Shown here piece after piece: positions 4,394 through 26,736 of a DNA stretch of 26,956 nucleotides. The DNA is from a virus. Each line of letters begins with the position of its first letter. The first letter of the stretch is position 1. The stretch is taken from positions 1 to 26,956 of IMG/VR virus record IMGVR_UViG_3300038760_000058, one strand, 5' to 3'. The notes under the pieces were generated by a model. That model saw only the letters and a list, made by a program, of their open reading frames with translations, made no database searches and was not told the DNA's origin. The position numbers and the translations under genes are program-made.

Positions 4394-4898
4394 CCTTTCT
4401 TGCGTTCTCAATTGCTTTGTTGAGAAGTTGTTCTGCAACAAGCTTTTTCATTGTCTTTGGAACAAGTCGAAACGCCGGGATCAGGTGCTCTGACTGAGAC
4501 ATCAAGTGTGCAACGATTGTGTTCTTGTTGTCTTCGCACCAGTTGATACCGTATCTGTCCATCCTAACTGCCATGTCGGAGCACCCGCATCCAGACTTAT
4601 TTTTAACTGCCCAGTCAGGTATTAGTTTGCTTAGTTCAGTTCCTACGCTTTGATTCTTAATTTCTTTTGGGTGATGATACAAGTCTTGAAGTATTTTTCT
4701 TGCTTGATCAATTTCGTTTACATCAAAAGCACTAGGGTTGTTTTGCATGACATGCAAAATAGCAGGAGATGCCTTATATGCATTTTCTTCTGTAATACCC
4801 TTAAGAGATCGAATCAATGCTTGAGCAGAAGGGTTGTTTGTGTCAATGCCAAGTGATTTAACAATAGATTTCACTATCACGTTATTTTGTCTCCGCAT
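4386..4898 (-). CDS. Hypothetical protein with GCGC/WCE Cys motif, last gene of late operon
   Basis: The 170-residue protein is predicted helical in both halves. The centre has a short Cys motif, GCGCSDMAVRMDRYGINWCED (the Cys residues near 103, 105 and 120), followed by a helical segment ending in a basic tail. I have seen similar C-G-C ... W ... C modules at the ends of phage tail gene clusters but know of no proven function; it may bind metal. It overlaps the preceding Cys-rich gene by 22 nt and ends convergently against the phosphoesterase gene. A late structural or lysis-linked role is only contextual. Confidence 0.75.
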   Translation of the reverse strand: MRRQNNVIVKSIVKSLGIDTNNPSAQALIRSLKGITEENAYKASPAILHVMQNNPSAFDVNEIDQARKILQDLYHHPKEIKNQSVGTELSKLIPDWAVKNKSGCGCSDMAVRMDRYGINWCEDNKNTIVAHLMSQSEHLIPAFRLVPKTMKKLVAEQLLNKAIENARKAT

Positions 4899-6163
4899 TT
4901 TGTGCCAGAAACGGTGAGTCTAGTTGGGTTTCCGCTGCCTACAGTTTCTGAACAAACTGACTCACTAGGAAAGCCAATCAAGGTGCAACTTGCTGCATCA
5001 CCAATGTCAATCAAAACGTCTGTATAGAACCATCCGTATTTGAAAGAGTTGCCACTCCCTCCTGAACCAAACCAAATGTATCGATAATTACTTCCTGCTG
5101 AAGATGTAGTTGCTACTCCATAAAGCTTGGCAACTGTTGGGTAAGAAACTGTAGACATTTCTGAAAAAGAGCCTACCGTTGTTTCTTCTGTTGATAAGCC
5201 TTCGTCAATAATAAAAAACGTCAGTTCAAATTCCCCCGAACCATTTCTGCAAAACATTGTGCATGTGCTTGTCGATCTATCGCTGTGGTCAAAGCATGTT
5301 GCTGTTGCAGTACCCTGCCCCTCGCATGGGCAATCAGTAGGTTCAAACGATTCCCCATTCATGCAAATATACCAAGTGCGTCCAAATGGGTTTGTAGAAG
5401 GATTGTATTCTGTGTATCGATAACAGTCTGTTCCGCTTCCTACATTGCTATAAGTTGCCCAAGTTTTGTATATGCTTGCAGCACCAAGGCCCTTCCCTTT
5501 TGTTGATTCTAAAGTGCTATCAGCATCGTAAAGGTAATCCCAAGTCCATCCGCAAACAAACTCAGTTGACGATGTGTTATCAAGCGTTCCAAACTTAGTG
5601 CCTAAGTAGTTGTGGACTTCGCCTGTTACATTGCTCCATGTTGGGTGTCCGTCTTCCCAATCGCCTTTAAACCCGCTAATTAAGCATCCGCAACAAGGAT
5701 CGTAGTCAGCCCCTGACCATGTAATTGTGCATGAATCGCTAGAAGTATTTCCGTTCAAATAAAGAGTGTCTGATCCACTGCAAGAATAAACGGGGTTTAA
5801 CAGCGATCCAGTTCGGTACACTTTTGTTGTACTTGTCGAACTATCAATAAACGAAAGACGATGCAAACTTACAGGAACACTAAAGGAGTCAACTCCGCTT
5901 GCGTGCTCTGTTCCAAATCTTATTGCAACCTGAGATGTTGATCCTGTTGTGCAGATTAAAAAACCAAATACATCGTCAGGCCCCTCAATGGTTGGCTCTT
6001 GCGATGCAGTTATTCCAGTCAGTCCACTAAATGAAACAGATGTTCTGTCAATGCCGCAACCACTGTTTGACATGCATCGCAATTCTTTGACTTCACAGTC
6101 TTCTGTCCCATTGCACCCACAGGACGGGCATCTTGCACCCATCCATTTCATTCCGTTTGCCAT
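4877..6163 (-). CDS. Cysteine-rich, Ser/Thr/Gly-rich tail-tip or adhesion protein candidate
   Basis: The 428-residue protein is unusual in holding about 23 Cys, starting with a ribbon-like N-terminus (CPSCGCNG then EDCEVKELRC), a DPCCGC cluster near the middle and further pairs such as CPC and CTMFC. The rest is rich in Ser, Thr, Gly and aromatics, with a beta-strand pattern as in extracellular or phage fibre proteins. There is no signal peptide or membrane span. Its place near the end of the tail cluster suggests a receptor-binding or tail-tip protein, stabilised by metal or disulfides. I do not recognise a family, so that role is inference. Confidence 0.65.
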   Translation of the reverse strand: MANGMKWMGARCPSCGCNGTEDCEVKELRCMSNSGCGIDRTSVSFSGLTGITASQEPTIEGPDDVFGFLICTTGSTSQVAIRFGTEHASGVDSFSVPVSLHRLSFIDSSTSTTKVYRTGSLLNPVYSCSGSDTLYLNGNTSSDSCTITWSGADYDPCCGCLISGFKGDWEDGHPTWSNVTGEVHNYLGTKFGTLDNTSSTEFVCGWTWDYLYDADSTLESTKGKGLGAASIYKTWATYSNVGSGTDCYRYTEYNPSTNPFGRTWYICMNGESFEPTDCPCEGQGTATATCFDHSDRSTSTCTMFCRNGSGEFELTFFIIDEGLSTEETTVGSFSEMSTVSYPTVAKLYGVATTSSAGSNYRYIWFGSGGSGNSFKYGWFYTDVLIDIGDAASCTLIGFPSESVCSETVGSGNPTRLTVSGTKCGDKIT

Positions 6164-10207: not shown

Positions 10208-10539
10208 TTTCCCTCAAGTTCTCCATTGATCAGCATCACTGCTTCAATGAATGGATCAAGTTTGCTGCCATCAAGAGCAAGCAAGTCTTTTGAATCACCT
10301 TCGTTGAACATTGCTTTGCCGTCTTTGTCGCAGATGTGATCAATGATCAAATTCACCCTGCGTCTTTGCTTTGACTCGTTAGTCAAATTACCGTTTTTGT
10401 CGAACATGTCTGCAATCCTCTTAGATCGCTGAAGCTCAGTCGAAGGCTTGACGTACAAAACGCCAAGTCCTTCGATGTTTACTTCTTTGACCTCAATCTT
10501 GCAGTGATCAAGCAGTAACTGTTTCGTCAGGGAAGTCAT
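10192..10539 (-). CDS. Tail assembly chaperone (G-like), zero-frame product
   Basis: The 115-residue form starts at the ATG at 10537-10539 (MTSLTKQLLL), which has GAGG 9 nt upstream; a further in-frame ATG at 10566 is less likely. The protein has the phage tail-chaperone pattern: VKEVNIEGLGVLYVKPST, then ELQRSKRIADMF, RRRVNLIIDHICDKDGKAMF, and an acidic end with IEAVMLINGELEG. Such proteins coat the tape measure and are absent from the mature virion. The gene lies between the tail tube and tape-measure genes. The slippery site is six codons before its stop, so a fraction of ribosomes continue into the T-like extension. Confidence 0.82.
   Translation of the reverse strand: MTSLTKQLLLDHCKIEVKEVNIEGLGVLYVKPSTELQRSKRIADMFDKNGNLTNESKQRRRVNLIIDHICDKDGKAMFNEGDSKDLLALDGSKLDPFIEAVMLINGELEGNDEAE
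10207..10213 (-). promoter_or_regulatory. -1 ribosomal slippery heptamer GGGAAAC
   Basis: On the minus strand the zero frame reads GAG GGA AAC GAC, so the heptamer is G GGA AAC in the exact X XXY YYZ register. Lambda uses GGGAAAG at the same place between G and T. Re-pairing gives GGG AAA and resumes at CGA (10207-10205), the frame of the downstream extension. Confidence 0.8.
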
Positions 10540-23661: not shown

Positions 23662-23873
23662 AAGCATGGCGTATAACCTGGAAAGACAAAAAAGGATTTC
23701 TTAAATCTCGCTACAGAACCTCGCAGGGGGATGCTCTCACAAGAGTCACGCGAGCGAAAAAAGAAGGATCTCAAGTTAGACTCGAAACCGTCGAGATCCC
23801 GACCTCAAGGTTTGCTTTGGTAGACTTTTTGAATTCTGAAATGGACTCAGTCGATTCGGAGTCATCAATATGA
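23658..23873 (+). CDS. Small hypothetical protein
   Basis: A 71-residue protein (MKAWRITWKDKKGFLKSRYRTS start) whose ATG at 23658 lies in a 4-nt ATGA overlap with the previous stop and has GGAG about 7 nt upstream. A longer start at 23646 is less likely. The N-terminal half is basic with a possible beta hairpin, then comes VRLETVEIPTS and a C-terminal acidic tail. No family recognised. Confidence 0.65.
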   Translation: MKAWRITWKDKKGFLKSRYRTSQGDALTRVTRAKKEGSQVRLETVEIPTSRFALVDFLNSEMDSVDSESSI

Positions 23874-24157
23874 ATATGAAAAGGTTCACTTTCATTTCAG
23901 ATAGACAACCCACTGCTGAAGATGCAAACCCGCAAAGCTATGTGCTCGACGAGAACTACGCTTTCATCAAGTGGTTCAAAGTAACACCCGAGCAGGCTTG
24001 GTATCCGCTACCGACATCGAGTCAATCGCAAGAGCAGAAAGTTAAAAACCTGCTAGACGCAATCGACCAAAAGCAAACCAAAAGGCCAGTGGTAATTCCA
24101 TACGAAATTGCACACTGGATACTCAAGGTCAAAGAAGCACGGGAGGAATTGCGATGA
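23870..24157 (+). CDS. DUF551-like protein
   Basis: The 95-residue protein opens with FTFISDRQPTAEDANPQSYVLDENYAFIKWFKV and EQAWYPL, matching the DUF551-type pattern (W/F-x-S-x-DRLPT-x-DA ... W ... W.PL). DUF551 proteins are common in phage early regions and have no known activity. The C-terminal helix (VVIPYEIAHWILKVKEAREEL) is an added segment. It is coupled to both neighbours through ATGA overlaps and is a paralog-like relative of the broken gene at 24478. Confidence 0.72.
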   Translation: MNMKRFTFISDRQPTAEDANPQSYVLDENYAFIKWFKVTPEQAWYPLPTSSQSQEQKVKNLLDAIDQKQTKRPVVIPYEIAHWILKVKEAREELR

Positions 24158-24249
24158 TTTCCGATCCAAAATACCGATGGGGAATACTGATGACTACCAA
24201 GCATGCAAAAGTGGAGGGGCTTTGTACCCTGAAAGGATTTGACAAATGA
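24154..24249 (+). CDS. Tiny 31-residue protein
   Basis: The ATG at 24154 has GGGAGG 8 nt upstream, one of the best RBS sites in the region, and overlaps both the preceding and following genes by 4 nt. The product (MISDPKYRWGILMTTKHAKV start) is basic. The start/stop geometry strongly suggests real translation; it may also serve mainly to couple the neighbours. Confidence 0.6.
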   Translation: MISDPKYRWGILMTTKHAKVEGLCTLKGFDK

Positions 24250-24485
24250 TTGAACAACAAACTGAAAAGTTGCTAAAAGAAAACGCAAGACTTCAAGAGG
24301 AAAACGAATGTTTTGAAGCGATGAAGGAAGGCGTTGTCATCCGAATCGCTGATTTAGAGGACGAGAACTTGCGACTGCGTGATCTCGTAAGAGATTCTTA
24401 CGTTGAAGGTAGATTAGCCTTGGGTGCAGCAGAAAACTGGGCCAGCAGCAAATCCAAATCAAGACTTGAGGTGAGCAATGAGTAA
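24246..24485 (+). CDS. Coiled-coil (leucine-zipper-like) protein
   Basis: The 79-residue protein has an N-terminal heptad pattern (EQQTEKLLKENARLQEENECFE, ADLEDENLRLRDLVRD) typical of a dimeric coiled coil, and a short C-terminal tail. It overlaps the DUF551-like fragment by 8 nt. A small dimerising regulator or structural peptide is likely; no family recognised. Confidence 0.68.
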   Translation: MIEQQTEKLLKENARLQEENECFEAMKEGVVIRIADLEDENLRLRDLVRDSYVEGRLALGAAENWASSKSKSRLEVSNE

Positions 24486-24702
24486 GTGGATAACTGACAG
24501 ACTTCCGACATTCGATGATGCTGATGATTCAGGTGATGTCTACCGCCCCAGGGGACAGCAGTTTGTGACATTGGCTTGGCGGTCAACGAGCGACGCAAAA
24601 GCGGTGACGAATGGGTTGATGAGACAACCTTCGTCGATGTCACGCTCTGGGGCCGGAACGCAGAGGTTGCCAACGAGTACACGCAAAAAGGCAACAGCGT
24701 GA
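24478..24702 (+). pseudogene. DUF551-like gene disrupted by fused SSB sequence
   Basis: The start MSKWITDRLPTFDDADDSGDV is DUF551-like (W-I-x-DRLPT-xxDAD) and has GAGG upstream. Near 24540 the DNA switches to bacterial SSB sequence in another frame; downstream the DUF551 frame reads low-quality Ser/Arg-rich sequence (SMSRSGAGTQRLPTSTRKK) and stops at 24702. So only the first about 21 residues look native. An overlooked one-base difference could merge the frames, but would still not give a complete SSB. Confidence 0.6.
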
Positions 24703-24881
24703 TGATCGAGGGCCGGCTTAAATTTGAATCGTGGGAGAACGAAGGCCAGAAGCGGTCAAAGCTCAAGGTGGTCGCGGATCGCCTGCAGTTGCTTGGCGGC
24801 AAGCCGGTTGAGCAAAAAGCAAAACCGGCAGCAGTGCCGGCGGCCAGTGAAAAGTATGACTACCAAGACCCACCGTTTTAA
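24537..24881 (+). pseudogene. ssb: Single-stranded DNA-binding protein fragment lacking the N-terminus
   Basis: This frame, open only from 24537, reads LPPQGTAVCDIGLAVNERR, then EWVDETTFVDVTLWGRNAEVANEY, GNSVMIEGRLKFESWE, GQKRSKLKVVADRLQLLGG and an acidic C-terminal tip YDYQDPPF. These are hallmark segments of a cellular OB-fold SSB, including the DxPPF-type partner-binding tip. The first about 25 residues (the NxVxLIGNLxxDPELR strand) are missing: an in-frame TGA at 24534 is followed by the junction. Only a TTG at 24576 could start it, giving 101 residues without strand 1. The fragment looks more GC-rich than the surrounding genes, consistent with transfer from another genome. Confidence 0.8.
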
Positions 24882-24891
24882 GGAGAGCAAA

Positions 24892-25728
24892 ATGGCGAAT
24901 ACGTCACTAGTGACGCGAGATCGACGCAAAGCGTTTCAGCAAGTCGATCAACAGATTCAGAAATCTATTTTAGCTATTGAGTCTGAATCAATTGTCTTGT
25001 CACGCAATTTGCGGGAAATGGCACAGGACAGAGATGACGGCAAGCCTTTGTGGAGCGAGGGTGGTTTTAGTTCGCTTAAAGCCTACTGCGAGGATCGTTC
25101 GATTGGCAAAACGCGGTTTCGCGAGTTGATGTATACCGGTGAAGTAGTTGAACGATTGGAGTGTGAAAATAGGCAAAATGATCGGAGCCTTCCGATGCCA
25201 TTAAATGCCGGTTCGGTTCAGCCGATGTACACGTTAGCAAACAAAGATCCCGAAGCTATCCCCCAGGTCTGGGATTACGCAATCGAAGTAGCCAGTAAAG
25301 ACGATTGCCACCAACCAGAGCAGCGGCATGTCCAAGAAGCAATGCGGGAGTACAACGCCAAGGGCGGTGATCTCCAAGCAAGCCGACGTAAGTATTCCAG
25401 CCGCGAACGCGAGTTAAAAGAGCATTGTGAAAACGGCTGGACCGTCGTTGCGAATATCAATACCGATCACGCATTGATCAGCTGGGCCGAGGCAAAGGGG
25501 AGATACATTTACGTTGGTCGCGGGTCGAAGTGGGGCAACCCATTCAAAATGGGCGATGACGGCGACCGAGAAGCTGTTTGCGATTGCTACAAAAAGCATT
25601 ATGTCCCGTACAAGCCAAGCATTTTAAGCGACTTAGATTCTTTGGCTGGGATGGTCTTGGGATGTTACTGCTCACCGCAGAGATGTCACGCAGAAACCCT
25701 CGCGTCACTCGCAAACAAGGAGAGTTAA
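24892..25728 (+). CDS. Protein with C-terminal DUF4326 domain
   Basis: The 278-residue protein starts at the ATG at 24892 (AAGGAG lies 6 nt upstream). The N-terminal about 170 residues are helical and charged, with no recognised family. The C-terminus has the DUF4326 signature: YIYVGRGSKWGNPFK, REAVCDCYKKHY, LDSLAGMVLGCYCSPQRCHAETLA. DUF4326 is common in phages and bacteria and has no proven activity; the conserved Cys/His pattern suggests a metal- or nucleotide-related role. The long N-terminal extension is unusual, as most DUF4326 proteins are short. It follows the truncated SSB and is 2 nt before the next gene. Confidence 0.8.
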   Translation: MANTSLVTRDRRKAFQQVDQQIQKSILAIESESIVLSRNLREMAQDRDDGKPLWSEGGFSSLKAYCEDRSIGKTRFRELMYTGEVVERLECENRQNDRSLPMPLNAGSVQPMYTLANKDPEAIPQVWDYAIEVASKDDCHQPEQRHVQEAMREYNAKGGDLQASRRKYSSRERELKEHCENGWTVVANINTDHALISWAEAKGRYIYVGRGSKWGNPFKMGDDGDREAVCDCYKKHYVPYKPSILSDLDSLAGMVLGCYCSPQRCHAETLASLANKES

Positions 25729-25730
25729 AA

Positions 25731-26102
25731 ATGCTTTCCGAATACACATTGGTTGCGCGTGCAATGCCAGATGAGCATCAGAAACTTGGGACAGCGATTT
25801 GCAGCGTAGGGCTATGCCCAGACAAAGGATTGATTCGGGTTTATCCACTGTTGGCTGAAGTACCAATGAGTCAATGGAGAACGTATGAAGTTGCAATAGC
25901 AAAAGACGCATCTGACACTACGCTAAACGGAGTGCTCCAGAAGTGGCATTGTATCGTTGAGCATGAGATGTGGTTTCCTCTTCCAAAAGCTCCTGAACCG
26001 CGTGAGCACCTCGTTGACCGACTGCTTGAAGTCATCGATGAAATGCACGATGGAGAGGCAGATTGGTCAGAAGTCTGGAAAGCAAGAAAGGCACTGAGAT
26101 GA
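25731..26102 (+). CDS. Uncharacterised protein of a widespread IRxYP-type family
   Basis: The 123-residue protein starts at the ATG at 25731 with AAGGAG 8 nt upstream. It has the pattern GTAICSVGLCPDKGLIRVYPLLAEVPMSQW-TYEVAI, which I have seen in uncharacterised phage and plasmid proteins (CxxG ... IRxYP ... W ... Y), then a C-terminal helical part (REHLVDRLLEVIDEMHDGEADW). No function is known to me. It lies 2 nt after the DUF4326 gene and may act with it. Confidence 0.72.
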   Translation: MLSEYTLVARAMPDEHQKLGTAICSVGLCPDKGLIRVYPLLAEVPMSQWRTYEVAIAKDASDTTLNGVLQKWHCIVEHEMWFPLPKAPEPREHLVDRLLEVIDEMHDGEADWSEVWKARKALR

Positions 26103-26112
26103 GCAATAAAAT

Positions 26113-26646
26113 ATGAGTCTCTCCGAACTCATGACATCGGTCTTACAGCCGATATTCGACCTGCTTCCGAGGATCTCACAACGCCCTGCAAGCAATGAGT
26201 GGGGCGTTCGCGATAGTTGGCTCAGTGGTGTCAAGCACTTCAATGGCCCATTGCTACATGTACCAGTCACTACTCATGCGGAATATTGGCCGAAATGTGA
26301 AGTCCCCATAGACACTGGTCTTCAGACCCTCACCACCGCTGACAACAAAACTGTCAGCGTGAACGCAACCCTCATCATCAAGATCGAAGATCCAGTCGTT
26401 CTGCGGTCGATCTGCGAATGGGAAGGCTATGAAGAGTGGATCGCGATGAAAGTCAGGGGAATAGTCCAGGATGTCATATGCGGTCACAACTGGAGGGACT
26501 CCATTGAAAGAGCGTCTGACTTCATCGAGCTTGATGCTGCTGACCAACTCATGTACGCAGGCATCGAAGTTCTCCAACTCGTCTTAGAAGACGCTACAGA
26601 GGTCATTCCACTGAGAATCCTCAACCCCTACGGAAGCTCAGAATGA
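26113..26646 (+). CDS. SPFH/Band-7-like protein
   Basis: The 177-residue protein matches the SPFH/stomatin-prohibitin core. After an N-terminal amphipathic segment (LMTSVLQPIFDLLPRIS) come WGVRDSWLSGVKHFNGPLLHVPVT (the GPGLHxxxP turn), EVPIDTGLQTLTTADNKTVSVNATLIIKIEDPVVL (the conserved TADxxxVxVxxxxxYxIxDP motif) and a helical arginine-containing segment (KVRGIVQDVI). Cellular SPFH proteins scaffold membranes and form large rings with proteases. This one is short, ending soon after the core and lacking the long coiled coil, so it may be a minimal or dominant-negative form. No hydrophobic anchor is obvious. It is the last gene of the rightward block. Confidence 0.78.
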   Translation: MSLSELMTSVLQPIFDLLPRISQRPASNEWGVRDSWLSGVKHFNGPLLHVPVTTHAEYWPKCEVPIDTGLQTLTTADNKTVSVNATLIIKIEDPVVLRSICEWEGYEEWIAMKVRGIVQDVICGHNWRDSIERASDFIELDAADQLMYAGIEVLQLVLEDATEVIPLRILNPYGSSE

Positions 26647-26736
26647 GATTTTCGGTCAACCGCGTTGACACGTTAGGTCAAAACGCTCAAAAAAAGGGCT
26701 TTTTGGCGCGAGCATCGCACCAGACGTCGTGACCTT

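Follow-up and report, generated by a model that had tools for sequence, protein, structure and literature searches.

Illegitimate recombination is thought to make many of the mosaic joints seen in phage genomes, and those that survive have mostly been filtered to the edges of genes. Two described situations come closest to the locus analyzed here. In phage mosaicism by illegitimate recombination, the joints lack extensive homology, the acquired segment is absent from near relatives, and retained joints are often found near gene boundaries (PMC3029335). A phage moron is likewise extra DNA that carries a complete open reading frame and is absent from relatives, but it lies between two contiguous genes and has a promoter and a terminator of its own (PMC3029335). 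The window, by which we mean the entire viral record of 26,956 nucleotides that was analyzed, carries a segment of 1,376 bp (24544..25919, plus strand) that shares with mosaic joints the absence of extensive homology and is missing from its relatives, and like a moron contains one complete reading frame. It differs from the first in that both joints fall inside genes, and from the second in that it sits inside a single gene and has gene fragments at both ends. Since the joints break the target gene as well as both end genes of the segment, the insertion looks unselected and recent. The type of event is known, and it is the preservation that is unusually clean: a fresh insertion with all three gene ends broken, and with the empty site at hand in several relatives, would represent the raw event prior to selection, with joints resolved to the base that can be used for testing the mechanism.

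Relatives of the window phage were found through the terminase, which retrieved 14 viral contigs with a 94-97% identical protein. Four of these (L033-L036) have a small gene at the place in question, and in L033-L035 it is whole and uninterrupted with 82 codons, while in L036 the end of the contig falls inside the gene, yet the sequence is continuous across the insertion site. In the window the same gene is found as two separate pieces on the plus strand, together with both joints spanning 24478-26102. The 5' part of 22 codons (24478..24543) is 85-89% identical at the nucleotide level to L033-L036, and the 3' part (25920..26102) is 86% identical to L035 and 80% to L033. Homology of the 5' piece stops at 24543 in four out of four relatives, and homology of the 3' piece begins at 25920 in L035, L033 and L036; in L034 the BLAST match restarts four bases later, owing to mismatches. 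The left joint is thus placed exactly between 24543 and 24544 and the right joint between 25919 and 25920, and the two flanks abut directly in the relatives (7370 and 7371 in L036, 10251 and 10252 in L033, 402 and 401 in L035). When 24544-25919 is excised in silico, the exact 82-codon frame is restored with no bases lost or added, matching the homologues. Because the flanks are contiguous in the relatives and the joined pieces give the 82-codon frame, we take 24544-25919 to be an insertion into a recipient genome that is otherwise co-linear with its relatives. A preliminary description had taken the reading frame starting at 24478 to contain a recombination scar, phage-host or phage-phage in origin, or else an assembly chimera. 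The scar stands, probably as a phage-phage event, but not as a single junction: on the sequence comparison, the junction following 24478 is the left edge of the insertion, one of two joints of a clean 1,376-bp segment. The assignment of the short 5' piece to DUF551 found no support: neither the 22- and 74-residue pieces of the window nor the intact 82-residue homologues gave a Pfam match to DUF551 at E values up to 1-5.

The insert is known from one record, and the k-mers across the left and the right junction are absent from all other viral contigs searched, as they would be if an assembly or library chimera had placed DNA here that is found in no real phage genome. A single misjoin would however not re-enter the same gene at the very next base, and the fact that two independent joints bracket exactly one uninterrupted target position argues strongly against such an artefact. 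Neither end has homology of k-mer length that could have caused an error in the assembly graph, and we regard a chimera as improbable.

GC content is 51% in the insert, 45% to its left and 50% to its right. The insert consists of an SSB gene without its start, a complete DUF4326 gene and the 63-codon beginning of a gene like phrog_25907, with ribosome-binding-like spacing separating the genes. It reads as a fragment of the operon of another genome, and each of its two ends falls within a gene. The SSB gene (24544..24881, plus strand) lacks its first 25 or so codons and has neither a start codon nor a ribosome-binding site of its own. As described before, a short reading frame from 24478 is followed by an SSB in the -1 frame, with coding sequence from 24544, and the SSB frame is closed upstream by an in-frame stop, TGA at 24534-24536. 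The match to Pfam SSB (PF00436) in this frame is clear (2.5e-24; 85.8 bits, where the cutoff is 26) and the best PDB SSB match to the fragment is 2fxq (2.4e-24). The fragment resembles a bacterial or phage-type SSB in fitting positions 20-104 of the 104-position profile and the PDB structures, and differs from it in the loss of the N-terminal strand, as had been noted, and of the start codon, the first 19 or so profile positions being absent. The OB fold is therefore incomplete, and the missing part is present in the intact SSB of a related viral contig (L002, see below). In a second contig with an intact SSB (L039), DNA similarity to the window starts exactly at 24544; this boundary agrees with the 24543 given by the recipient's relatives, and the two were obtained from different sequences. 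The open and conserved SSB frame lies just one frame away from the small gene, as a functional fusion of the two by frameshifting would require, but inspection of the junction revealed no slippery heptamer, the two proteins are separate and intact in relatives, and strand 1 of the SSB is missing, so that a fusion of this kind is very hard to credit.

The second gene of the insert (24892..25728, plus strand) is complete, encodes 278 amino acids with a DUF4326 domain (Pfam 3.7e-20; phrog_464 2.3e-28), and carries its own ribosome-binding site, being preceded by AAGGAGAGCAAA. DUF4326 proteins have been proposed to act on the phosphates of ADP-ribose derivatives (PMC9503650). The third (25731..25919, plus strand) covers the opening 63 codons of what was a longer gene in the donor, and matches positions 15-75 of the 279 in phrog_25907 (E 3e-4). 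Its intact homologues in bacterial genomes have approximately 260-290 residues and continue with "..SD-RPES.." just beyond the break, and the homology stops at the right breakpoint. Here the truncated gene is joined in frame to the 3' part of the target gene, giving a 123-codon reading frame (25731-26102). PADLOC gave a weak match (0.0054) for the truncated gene and nothing for the DUF4326 gene.

Introns, inteins and some single-strand transposons typically insert without duplicating their target, and no target-site duplication accompanies the insert, as would be expected if it were an intron, an intein or another mobile element of this habit. Against this, both ends lie within ordinary coding sequence, there are no direct or inverted repeats of at least six bases at the insert ends, and no transposase, integrase or endonuclease was matched in the insert by Pfam. 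A transposon was rejected for want of both a transposase and terminal repeats in the insert, and a self-splicing intron because Rfam gave no match over 24200-26300 at E values up to 1. We therefore consider an element of any of these kinds highly unlikely.

The SSB fragment is closest to intact SSBs on two contigs. One is L002, a viral contig of 28 kb (86% amino acid and 84% nucleotide identity); the other is L039 (82% amino acid identity), which carries an integrase and a RecT-like protein and belongs to the MAG "bacterium TMED88", listed by NCBI with an unclassified lineage. The planctomycete source suggested earlier was accordingly not confirmed. In both contigs the intact SSB gene lies directly behind a recT-like gene, the RecT assignment having been run on L002 and carried over to L039 by similarity of the reading frames. 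Each contig also shares one gene with the window phage (about 53% amino acid identity), suggesting that their gene pools overlap with that of the recipient. The donor operon itself, SSB-DUF4326-phrog_25907, was not found by DNA or protein searches of viral contigs, INPHARED phages and selected records. The most probable donor is a phage, or a prophage, whose early operon was of the recT-ssb type. In L002, three imperfect tandem copies of about 55-61 bp around TCTGCGTAACCCGCAT follow directly after the intact SSB gene (10328-10504).

Taken together, what very probably happened is that one of this phage's small accessory genes recently received a donor fragment through an illegitimate, homology-independent insertion. 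A double-stranded fragment of another genome would have been captured by illegitimate recombination, during co-infection or carriage of a prophage, and a broken recipient molecule would have been joined in vivo around it, possibly by end joining. Extended homology is absent as far as 40 bp on either side of the joints, a comparison limited at the right end by the missing donor, and the 40-bp insert ends have no 6-mers in common with the flanks. The same insertion could instead have arisen by two successive short-homology recombinations, or by one homology-facilitated event, which is a mechanistic variant compatible with the insertion itself. Near the left joint, the recipient TACACGC and the donor-type SSB sequence GGACGCC of L039 have ACGC in common, and by eye the stretch ATGAGTCAATGGAGAAC in the truncated right-hand donor gene resembles the start of the target gene. 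The left joint is however one base short of the expected ACGC product, so that microhomology is possible there but not what the product shows, and the sequence is compatible with blunt joining. The lack of common 6-mers and the exact retention of the target position also speak against short homology, and we consider this route unlikely. Because the searches did not recover the donor, the position of the right joint could shift by a few bases, and the figure of zero loss could be off by as much if donor and target shared bases there. A distant possibility is an efficient activity for blunt end joining or fragment capture, encoded by the phage or by its host, which would place pieces of DNA from co-resident phages, a kilobase or so in size, into phage genomes that have broken, with neither loss nor duplication at the target.

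Neither the interrupted target gene nor the SSB fragment is predicted to function, while the DUF4326 gene should still be translatable and the 123-residue fusion is presumably a by-product. The dN/dS values of the SSB fragment and the interrupted gene (0.05-0.07) suggest that neither has decayed yet, which fits a recent event, although values from so few sequences are a weak clock. The gene upstream (23870-24157) is a paralogue of the interrupted gene with 37% identity, and loss of the latter may therefore be buffered. As stated previously, the phage also has a DUF669 SSB-like protein (Pfam 4.5e-9), which is found beside a Sak4-like ATPase (1583-2782); together they would make up a recombination module belonging to the phage itself, and different in type from the RecT-SSB pair that occurs in the contigs with the closest SSBs.

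Downstream from the interrupted gene the order of the relatives resumes with an SPFH/Band_7-like gene (26113..26646, plus strand; Band_7 3.3e-4, below the cutoff), and at the nucleotide level the region is 84.6% identical to L033 over 26112-26714 and 81% identical to L034 over 25924-26557. In L034 the Band_7-like gene directly follows the small gene, whereas about 680 bases of other DNA intervene in L033. Additional sequence immediately behind the interrupted gene, in L033 (10430-11110) and in L035 (1-220), indicates that the genome is variable at this end. Elsewhere in the window, a gene of 428 amino acids (4877-6163) is almost unalignable (19 amino acids) in the otherwise co-linear relative L038, and is a variable, possibly tail-associated gene.
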